Assembly (NCBI RefSeq): GCF_009696175.1
Contig: NZ_VUMM01000010.1
Location: 1 to 57,303, forward strand
Length of the DNA stretch: 57,303 nucleotides
From: Floccifex porci
GTDB taxonomy: Bacteria > Bacillota_I > Bacilli_A > Erysipelotrichales > Erysipelotrichaceae
Direction of reading: 5' to 3'
The notes beneath the pieces are model-generated. The model was not told the origin of the DNA, ran no database searches, and worked only from the letters and a program-made list of their open reading frames with translations. The translations under genes and the position numbers were made by a program. Below are positions 3,263 through 52,010 of this stretch, piece after piece. Each line of letters opens with the position of its first letter. The stretch's first letter is position 1.

Positions 3263-4114
3263 CTACTCCATTTCTAAAAAGGCTTTGATTTCATCTAAAC
3301 GATCTAATGTTTCCTGATAGCCTAAATTAAACCATGGTTCCAATTTATTCCGATCGGTTGTATATCTGGAAATCCCCATATCTTTGGATGGACGAAGAAC
3401 TAAAGCACTTCCCTCTTTTTCCATTTTTTCAATCAATTCCCATTGTTCGTTATAACGAAGATGACGATCTTTCAGATCCTGGGTAATTATTGGATCGTGA
3501 TACACCCGATTGGCCAGCCAGATCTGGTAACCAGGAGCAGGTTTTCTGACATAACCTACTTCTTTACAGGAAATAACCAGATGTTTCTTATAGCCCAATT
3601 CAATGCTTCTTTCAATTGGAATCATGACTCGAAGACCAGCATCCATATATAAACTGTCCAGAAATTTATATGGACGACACAACAACAATAAAGCACAACT
3701 GGCCTTGGTCAACGTATTGTCATCATCAATATAAGTCTGATCATAATATTCAATTTCATGCGTTTTTAAATTATAAACGCCTTCTTCCATACGAGTTGGC
3801 GAATTTAATAACGCTTCTTTATCCAATGGTGCCAATCGTTCAATTAATGCATTGGTAGATTCCAATCCAAACATATTTCTTTCTTTTAAGAAAGGACGAA
3901 TCCCTACCGCATCTTTACTGGATATAGAATCAATTCCAGTCACTTCCAGACGCTTTGACTGACCTGAAGCATAGGCCAGTAAGAATTCAGCTCCTGCTGA
4001 AATTCCCACACCATAATTGGCATAAATTCCATTATCCAGAAGACATTTTAAAACTCCTCCTGAATAAGCCGTTTTGGTTCCTCCACCTTCTATTACGACT
4101 GAAAACTCTACCAT
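3263..4114 (-). CDS. Patatin-like phospholipase family protein
   Basis: A 283-residue protein of the patatin family (YjjU-like), predicted acyl hydrolase with a Ser-Asp dyad. The oxyanion stretch GGGTKTAYSGG is at residues 10-20. The nucleophile elbow GISAG is at 37-41 with Ser39. The DAG near 158-160 fits the catalytic Asp of the D-G/A motif. No signal peptide or membrane segment is visible, so it should act inside the cell, possibly on membrane lipids. It overlaps the end of the malic enzyme gene by 7 bases and is probably cotranscribed with it. The natural substrate cannot be read from the sequence. Confidence 0.88.
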   Translation of the reverse strand: MVEFSVVIEGGGTKTAYSGGVLKCLLDNGIYANYGVGISAGAEFLLAYASGQSKRLEVTGIDSISSKDAVGIRPFLKERNMFGLESTNALIERLAPLDKEALLNSPTRMEEGVYNLKTHEIEYYDQTYIDDDNTLTKASCALLLLCRPYKFLDSLYMDAGLRVMIPIERSIELGYKKHLVISCKEVGYVRKPAPGYQIWLANRVYHDPIITQDLKDRHLRYNEQWELIEKMEKEGSALVLRPSKDMGISRYTTDRNKLEPWFNLGYQETLDRLDEIKAFLEME

Positions 4115-19042: not shown

Positions 19043-19072
19043 GAAGAGGATTCCTCTTCTTTTTCCTTTTTT
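19042..19072 (+). terminator. Terminator of the aldolase gene
   Basis: AGAAGAGGA pairs with TCCTCTTCT (19042-19060), followed by TTTTCCTTTTTTT. It begins at the stop codon. Confidence 0.75.
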
Positions 19073-19094
19073 TAGACTATCTTTTCCACATTAC

Positions 19095-19122
19095 TTGTAT
19101 CTATAAATATTCTTTATATAAT
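19095..19122 (+). promoter_or_regulatory. Promoter of a candidate small RNA
   Basis: TTGTAT (19095-19100), 16-bp spacer, TATAAT (19117-19122). No gene of normal length follows on this strand before a terminator at 19251-19289. Confidence 0.6.
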
Positions 19123-19128
19123 GAAATT

Positions 19129-19290
19129 GAAATTAGAGATACCAATAGATAAAGGGGTTATCTATAGTTACATACCGCTATAGATATTAAAAAAAGGTAT
19201 TTAATATAGATGAGATAGAAAGGAGTAAGCATGAATCGATTTATCTCATAAAAGGTCCTTACATCATAAATAGATAGTAAGGACCTTTTA
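19129..19290 (+). ncRNA. Candidate small structured RNA or short-peptide transcript
   Basis: The predicted transcript is about 160 nt. It contains a 9-bp hairpin TATCTATAG/CTATAGATA (19159-19167 with 19178-19186). A second stem ATGAGATA/TATCTCAT (19210-19217 with 19242-19249) encloses an AAAGGAG site and the start of a six-codon reading frame (MNRFIS, 19231-19251). The strong terminal hairpin AAAGGTCCTTAC/GTAAGGACCTTT follows at 19251-19288. It matches no RNA family that I recognise. It could be a small regulatory RNA or a remnant leader. Confidence 0.45.
19251..19290. terminator. Terminator of the small RNA, shared with the convergent gene
   Basis: AAAGGTCCTTAC (19251-19262) pairs perfectly with GTAAGGACCTTT (19277-19288) and is followed by TTAATATTTA. 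The minus-strand gene ends at 19288, inside it. Confidence 0.8.
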
Positions 19291-19725
19291 ATATTTACTA
19301 TTTCGTTTATACACAAAACTTACAATTTCATAAATCACATCTATATCTTTTTGTGTAAAATTGTATTTTACTTTATATTTATTAAAATACAACAACTGTT
19401 CCTCTTTTACAGATTGAAGCGTATGCAGTTCCATTTTTCTTTTTATATAAGAATCAATGCTAAAATAAATATTAGCTCTTCCTTTCTGATCTCGATTCAC
19501 AATAAACCAGTAAGCTTCTTTTGATAAACCTTCCAGATAGGAATATTCAACTTCTTTTTCTAAACCAAAATATAACCAGTATTTAGAATCAATCAAAGTA
19601 TGAATAATATATTCCATATTATTCACATCCAGCAATTCTTCCTTTAATAAACCTTTTAAATTTGAATTTAAATTGATCAATAACTGAAATAGATATTTTC
19701 GATTCTGAAGCTCTTTATAATTCAT
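19288..19725 (-). CDS. Hypothetical protein, 145 aa
   Basis: I do not recognise this protein. It is soluble in appearance, rich in Lys, Tyr, Leu and Glu, with no membrane segment or signal peptide. The N-terminal third (residues 1-60) looks helical, and the C-terminus YNFTQKDIDVIYEIVSFVYK also looks like a helix. The ribosome binding site is weak. It lies 28 bases after the PAP2 gene on the same strand, so it may be the last gene of the phospholipid operon. AT content is like its neighbours. Confidence 0.55.
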   Translation of the reverse strand: MNYKELQNRKYLFQLLINLNSNLKGLLKEELLDVNNMEYIIHTLIDSKYWLYFGLEKEVEYSYLEGLSKEAYWFIVNRDQKGRANIYFSIDSYIKRKMELHTLQSVKEEQLLYFNKYKVKYNFTQKDIDVIYEIVSFVYKRNSKY

Positions 19726-51700: not shown

Positions 51701-51838
51701 AAAGAAAAACAGGAGAATACCTTTTGTGGTATCCTCCTGTAATAGAGCCAAAACATTTCCTACGGCGGCATTATCCACATCAGGTATAAGGGTCGAAGGT
51801 TGCACCTTCCTCTCAGCCTGTCAGCACAAGCTCCCCTG
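51701..51838 (-). promoter_or_regulatory. TPP riboswitch 2 with terminator (thiW-proximal)
   Basis: On the minus strand the aptamer (51838-51755) starts CAGGGGAGCTTG and has GGCTGAGAGGAAGG, ACCTGATGTGGATAATGCCG and CCGTAGGAA, the conserved THI elements. It is followed by the terminator ACAGGAG(A)TACC-type hairpin at 51709-51740 and a T-rich run. Thiamine diphosphate binding should favour the terminator. Confidence 0.92.
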
Positions 51839-51851
51839 CGTTTTCAGTTGT

Positions 51852-51994
51852 AAAATAAAAACAGGAGACACCCTTGGGGATGCCTCCTGTAAAAAATCCT
51901 TGTGTATGACTTCCTACGGCGGCATTATCCGCATCAGGTTATAGGGTCGAAGTTCGATTACTTCCTCTCAGCCTGCACAAACAAGCTCCCCTGT
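51852..51994 (-). promoter_or_regulatory. TPP riboswitch 1 with terminator (promoter-proximal)
   Basis: A second complete THI element: aptamer 51994-51905 with CAGGGGAGCTTG, GGCTGAGAGGAAG, ACCTGATGCGGATAATGCCG and CCGTAGGAAG. Its own terminator stem at 51861-51890 (ACAGGAGRCACCC type) is followed by TTTTATTTT. It is transcribed first, so transcripts must pass both switches to reach thiW. Confidence 0.92.
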
Positions 51995-52010
51995 ATTTAT
52001 TTTGTTTGAT

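Follow-up and report, generated by a model that had tools for sequence, protein, structure and literature searches.

VirR and RgaR belong to the LytTR class of regulators. The LytTR-controlled RNAIII of Staphylococcus aureus is a large RNA with a small open reading frame (ORF) of its own. RgaR of Clostridioides difficile directly activates the small RNA SpoZ, in whose promoter the mutated repeat bases, at -51 and -72, are separated by 21 bp (PMC10602386). VirR of C. perfringens becomes active on phosphorylation, and three sRNA genes of strain 13 have VirR boxes ahead of them (PMC4877802), these boxes being imperfect direct repeats just upstream of the -35 element (PMC2838878). AgrA binds a pair of direct repeats ahead of P2 and P3 (PMC4227749), and MsrDL and TnaC are described as leader peptides with ribosome arrest (PMC10314930, PMC8429421).

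The locus analyzed here lies in a 57,303-nt stretch of the Floccifex porci genome (contig NZ_VUMM01000010.1), hereafter the window. It is an unannotated element of ~163 nt, tied both to a regulator that occurs in 22 of the 59 genera sampled from the family and to a longer RNA that is missing from Rfam. We propose, as the probable though by no means secure reading, that the element is a translated multicopy small-RNA gene in a LytTR-controlled regulon of the AgrA/VirR/RgaR type. Its features are listed below.

19056-19090, plus strand: operator, a direct repeat of TTCCT and TTCCA 21 bp apart (sites 19063-19067 and 19084-19088), from an alignment of 23 promoters
19095-19122, plus strand: promoter, with a weak -35 TTGTAT (19095-19100), a 16-nt spacer and a perfect -10 TATAAT (19117-19122)
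19129-19291, plus strand: predicted small RNA of ~163 nt, its start placed from the -10, backed by fold z -6.3 and homologues
19140-19157, plus strand: remnant of ORF1 (in relatives ACCRATG, a few codons and a stop), in which ATA at 19145-19147 replaces ATG
19159-19186, plus strand: hairpin TATCTATAG / CTATAGATA, stem 1 of an H-type pseudoknot, with two-sided changes at 9 of 12 pairs in 12 copies
19172-19200, plus strand: pseudoknot stem 2, loop ATACC (19172-19176) with GGTAT (19196-19200), 97% of cells paired in 12 copies
19219-19251, plus strand: ribosome site AAAGGAG (19219-19225) and ORF2, ATG AAT CGA TTT ATC TCA TAA (19231-19251), encoding MNRFIS
19252-19289, plus strand: intrinsic terminator, arms 19254-19262 and 19277-19285 followed by TTTT, with covariation in 10 aligned copies
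G000:C34:77010-77672, outside the window: ortholog of the LytTR regulator in the window's genome (G000)

Inspection of the sequence places the promoter, hairpin, ribosome site, six-codon frame and terminator where the earlier note had put them. Its description of the promoter as good holds for the perfect TATAAT; the -35 agrees with consensus at 3 of 6 bases, and the promoter is absent from the output of a sigma-70 scan. Judged by its letters, the window promoter combines a perfect -10 and a weak -35 with an activator-type operator ahead of them. This operator scores E 4e-9 with the model R2 described below, the window copy being part of that model's training set. The interval 19095-19290 contains no ORF of at least 60 aa, and the RNA at 19129-19291 folds at -43.1 kcal/mol against a shuffle mean of -21.9 (z -6.3; 0/200 shuffles as good), consistent with the predicted transcript of ~160 nt without a normal gene. 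A convergent ORF on the minus strand (19288-19725) ends at the tail of the terminator. The window copy may be partly worn, given its broken ORF1 and a first operator site that overlaps the T-run following the terminator of the upstream gene. Elsewhere in the window, two tandem TPP riboswitch aptamers lie on the minus strand, 46 nt apart (51740-51847 and 51894-52002).

With a 241-bp stretch as query, a second copy was found in the same genome, along with copies in relatives. Model R1 spans 79 positions of the 3' half and was built from 10 of the final 24 copies; across 97 relatives it returned 24 copies at E <=3e-4 in 7 of the 97 genomes, and all 24 matches were inspected individually. Five of these genomes belong to the window's genus (G000 with 3 copies, G001 with 2, G002 with 3, G003 with 7, G004 with 5) and two to other genera (G025 with 3, G078 with 1). 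Several paralogous copies per genome are what is expected of multicopy sibling sRNAs. The next two R1 matches beyond the seven genomes, in G054 (E 0.001) and G032 (E 0.013), were dropped, as they lie inside coding sequence. A pattern scan of a named genome collection gave 12 matches, all from three metagenome-assembled genomes, one of them labelled Erysipelothrix rhusiopathiae RUG11795. Within the family, 97 of 195 genomes matched the pattern at <=3 mismatches; we rejected this wider spread because the matches listed outside the genus and G025 resemble ordinary ribosome sites. Phage and plasmid collections held no match to the element, viral contigs did not contain the exact ORF2 pattern, and at gathering cut-offs the element matched none of the Rfam covariance models. 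Searches of the literature, mostly its open-access part, gave no tiny-ORF RNA family in Erysipelotrichaceae among the matches listed, and this family of short stand-alone RNA genes is apparently undescribed.

The downstream setting was examined for 17 of the 24 copies and was readable for 15, of which 12 face a convergent ORF and 3 an ORF on the same strand; the convergent arrangement occurs across several species and two genera. By eye, the nearest genes of the 17 copies are unrelated, with no recurring exporter, modifying enzyme or receptor. Given three syntenic ortholog pairs between species (L093/L094, L046/L095 and L131/L128) and other related copies with only the element in common (L041/L127 and L043/L047), the gene appears to have been both inherited and copied about. 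Two copies at L048 (G002:C8) lie 1.3 kb apart on one strand, separated by what look by eye like small membrane-protein genes. At L038 and L095, in two genera, the element adjoins the same glycosidase-like gene and the pseudoknot domain is present in just one, as if the middle domain were exchangeable.

The part retained in 24/24 copies is the ribosome site with ORF2, a frame of 6-13 codons whose end reads N-[KRN]-[FYL]-I-[SLY]-stop throughout, with 1 to 8 residues ahead of the five conserved ones. The pattern used to extract ORF2 held certain first and second codon positions constant, although none of the 23 copies failed to fit it. In the resulting codon test, third positions were the most variable (mean entropy 0.90 vs 0.22 and 0.51), and 8 of 14 single-step codon changes were synonymous where 3.3 were expected (p = 0.008). 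The ORF2 stop codon abuts the terminator stem. Further upstream, ORF1 is found in 16 of 23 copies, beginning ACCRATG in 14 and GCAATG in 2 and followed each time by a stop; twelve of the 16 copies have a 3-codon ORF1, two a single codon (ATG-TAA), one 8 codons and one 9. The other 7 copies, that of the window included, do not have it.

The hairpin that had been read as one of two internal stems recurs, as half of a pseudoknot. In 12 copies its loop pairs with a downstream stretch, mostly as ATACC/GGTAT, and the pairing is kept by ATACCC/GGGTAT in L042 and by ATACTT/AAGTAT in L048b. Two-sided changes occur at 11 of 18 pairs over the 12 copies (9/12 in stem 1, 2/6 in stem 2), and 4 of the 6 stem 2 pairs are invariant. 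Pairing reaches 91% vs <=51% in slid controls, a comparison biased in favor of a structure that was drawn from the same sequences; the covariation score was reached by 0/500 shuffles. Outside these 12 copies the pseudoknot domain is absent or the sequence is cut, and some carry CCCCCTAT instead. C-rich stretches are present in L045, L049 and L092 (TCCCCCTAT) and in L044 (TTCCCCTAT), and the middle domain as a whole varies between classes of copies.

The second internal stem, around the ribosome site and the ATG, exists as a 10-bp helix in the window copy and is peculiar to it and a few others. As a conserved switch it was rejected, since over 23 copies the mean longest helix was 6.00 bp vs 5.79 bp for mismatched or permuted partners (p = 0.14). 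The terminator, which the earlier note had called strong, is upheld by covariation in 10 aligned copies, although a simple scan with a loop limit of 8 did not report it. That alignment (A3) took 10 of the 17 copies then known and left out 7, six because their stem begins one base earlier and L048 because of a long insert. All of its cells are paired (100%), two-sided changes occur at 5 of 9 pairs, and the covariation score was reached by 0/500 shuffles; two of the five measures are weak, with 316/500 shuffles as high for further pair types and 15/500 for two-sided pairs. Compensatory changes in relatives, which had been named as the support to look for, are thus present in the hairpin, the pseudoknot and the terminator. 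With 24 copies and a peptide end conserved at the codon level, they favor what was first suggested from one stretch of DNA, a regulatory RNA or a six-codon peptide transcript. The element reads as a stand-alone, terminated RNA.

The 23 aligned promoters contain two sites with a 21-column period upstream of a -35 close to TTTAC. Exact TTCC is found at site 1 in 19/23, at site 2 in 17/23 and at both in 14/23, so that the direct repeat immediately ahead of the -35, with its period of ~21 bp, is imperfect in 9/23 copies. When anchored on the chosen -10, site 1 falls within 1 bp of its expected place in 17/23, site 2 in 15/23 and both in 12/23; L041 and L127 miss this position owing to the choice of a -10 that lies 2-3 bp later. 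A simple operator pattern gave 30, 29, 17, 17 and 19 hits in five genomes, against 2, 6, 10, 5 and 7 in the reversed control. Many of its matches resemble coding sequence, and we therefore used R2, a sequence model built from the 23 promoters and run on 39 relatives.

Of the 30 R2 matches listed for the genus at E <=2e-5, 19 had been used in training; contig ends cut three of the 11 new ones (L135, L136 and G003:C66). All eight readable new sites in this list lead, by eye, into short stretches with a terminal hairpin and a T-rich tail, and six of the eight have a tiny ORF. An MVPP-stop mini-ORF with synonymous Pro codons is found in three species (L214 at 3770-3830, L215, and L216 at G000:C4:30872), MDISESSDS and MDTLEKSDS (L137, L217) have a common C-terminus, and L141 encodes MAEPVSL. 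A Pro-Pro ahead of a stop codon is a known slow terminator. No tiny ORF is visible behind the operators of L160 and L218, the latter a decayed relative. At L217 (2432-2800) and L137, in two species, the operator-driven RNA with its MD..SDS mini-ORF lies, by eye, directly ahead of a look-alike gene, which at L217 is followed by a radical-SAM-like gene.

The operator at L214 starts 3 bp after the stop codon of a LytTR gene. With that protein as query, one match each at E 1e-15 was found in 35 of 115 family genomes, representing 22 of 59 genera. R2, whose training set includes none of the LytTR-linked promoters, places a same-strand operator directly behind the LytTR gene in 15 of 30 loci; there the -10 falls ~40-70 bp past the LytTR stop. 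The operator follows the next gene in 3/30 loci. The remaining 12/30 have no convincing operator by R2, L233 among them having a weak partial match elsewhere (E 0.012). L219 and L220 were excluded from the count of 30, having been picked for their operator. The window's genome contains five LytTR matches, one of which, at 67% identity, is orthologous to the operator-linked regulator; in this genome the operator is not adjacent to the gene for that ortholog. The ortholog is present in 6 of the 7 element-bearing genomes; in G003, which has the most copies, it was not found at E 1e-15, and because the neighboring HAD gene was not found either, an assembly gap is the likely cause. Pfam searches with two of the regulators matched the LytTR domain and did not recognize a receiver domain, which tells against the proposed assignment in that VirR responds to phosphorylation. 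Judged from their translations, the genes next to LytTR resemble murA, a HAD hydrolase and cdaA, and inspection of these loci brought no agr genes to notice. The literature, mostly its open-access part, gave no LytTR-cdaA-RNA locus among the matches listed.

The operator-driven RNA predicted behind the LytTR gene measures 362-489 nt in 12 loci, its end taken by eye as a hairpin. L226 and L219 appear to have a shorter version, L220, L253 and L254 a longer one. Such loci occur in many genera (L226-L255), for example L227:944-1421 (minus strand) and L231:2233-2721 (plus strand). Ten aligned linked RNAs contain the invariant blocks AGCGGTG.GA..ATGA.AA and CTATGGAGA.AAG.CTCCAAA, and in RNAalifold one helix shows two-sided changes at five of its pairs, all others being invariant or doubtful. 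By eye, the first ORF has 3-7 codons in 18/18 readable loci (two more are cut); these ORFs include MTIH, MTI, MTRDL, MGTIAG and MVPP, and that of L219 starts with GTG. Rfam gave no match to the linked RNAs at E up to 1 (5 loci) or 0.1 (9 loci), and with no match for them or for the element at these cut-offs, a riboswitch or known Rfam family is not supported.

Our model builds on what comparison of the sequences establishes, namely the family and its copies, the operator, the pseudoknot, the terminator, codon-level conservation and a genomic link between operator and LytTR gene. We propose that the LytTR regulator would bind the direct repeats, whose two units are spaced by 21 bp immediately ahead of the weak -35, and would then activate transcription, apparently turning on the copies as a set. 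The RNA would start near 19129 and fold into the H-type pseudoknot; its ribosome site would be used to make a very short peptide with the last five residues conserved, and translation would stop at the codon abutting the terminator hairpin, where the transcript also would end. The RNA may then act in trans as a dual-function RNA. The family is real, conserved and multicopy and appears to be translated, probably within an RNA-rich LytTR regulon.

Other readings give different weight to the RNA and the peptide. The copies could be non-coding sibling sRNAs that work by base pairing, through the pseudoknot loop, say, or a C-rich stretch in other copies, their mini-ORFs merely recruiting protective ribosomes. 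Multicopy sibling sRNAs have been described, for example LhrC under LisRK (PMC4132741, PMC4211561), and the C-rich stretches noted above would fit. This reading, which we consider rather unlikely, has to contend with a ribosome site and ORF2 kept in 24/24 copies, with wobble variation and conserved C-terminal residues, and with a middle domain that differs from class to class. It is doubtful, in our estimate, that the peptide is the product, acting without a leader sequence as an ultra-short signal or effector whose C-terminus is conserved (NRFIL/NKFIS). Five C-terminal residues kept behind 1 to 8 others would suit such a peptide, as would the common C-terminus of MDISESSDS and MDTLEKSDS, but the genes nearest to 17 copies, judged by eye, include no recurring exporter, modifying enzyme or receptor and look unrelated, and other members of the regulon encode unrelated peptides (MVPP, MAEPVSL).

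The conserved residues immediately ahead of the stop, the stop codon adjoining the terminator stem, and the synonymous changes in three copies of MVPP would fit a termination-arrest device, in which nascent NRFI[SL] or VPP holds the ribosome at the hairpin-abutting stop and its state sets read-through or RNA stability; we consider this unlikely, as 12 of 15 copies have no same-strand downstream gene. The same convergent context, which occurs across several species and two genera with 3 same-strand cases, tells against an attenuator with a regulated gene downstream; with a convergent gene behind 12 of the 15 readable copies, the family does not behave as leaders would, and the earlier note's alternative of a leader whose target gene was lost is not supported for it. 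That alternative, or a dead MITE-like repeat, would explain why there are many copies at unrelated locations, why one relative (L218) has decayed and why ORF1 is broken in the window copy. Compensatory changes in pseudoknot and terminator, three syntenic ortholog pairs kept between species, and the lack of matches in phage and plasmid collections, or of the exact ORF2 pattern in viral contigs, make it very improbable.

Should the reading we prefer, a translated multicopy small-RNA gene under a LytTR regulator, be true, it would offer a small, naturally occurring collection of regulon members, most of them marked by ORFs of 1-13 codons. Such ORFs are visible by comparison alone and are overlooked by annotation based on ORF length. 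A bolder extension, speculative and in our judgment improbable, is that all known members of the regulon are RNAs that act through a ribosome in the course of terminating. Each would have one or two ORFs of 1-13 codons with conserved ends (NRFI[SL], VPP, SDS) that stall or slow termination beside a hairpin, with one LytTR regulator switching on the set.

Several known systems resemble parts of this arrangement. Sibling RNAs such as LhrC (Listeria) and the csRNAs (Streptococcus) likewise comprise several near-identical RNA genes under one regulator; their regulators are of another type, and they are not known for conserved mini-ORFs. MsrDL and TnaC share the very short ORF with a conserved end and a stop near a terminator, whereas the copies described here have no downstream regulated gene in 12 of 15 cases. 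The pairing of AgrA with RNAIII is echoed by the LytTR gene that is directly followed by its own RNA gene in 15 of 30 loci, although no agr genes were noticed at the loci inspected. In RgaR-SpoZ and in VirR with VR-RNA, VirT and VirU, as here, a regulator and direct repeats upstream of the promoter go with stand-alone sRNAs. The present system differs from these in regulators without a recognized receiver domain (Pfam, two regulators) and in its many paralogous RNAs with ORFs of 1-13 codons; the likeness is one of layout and, for SpoZ, of 21-bp spacing. By analogy, we would place it beside the RgaR, VirR and AgrA systems, which it resembles in layout.
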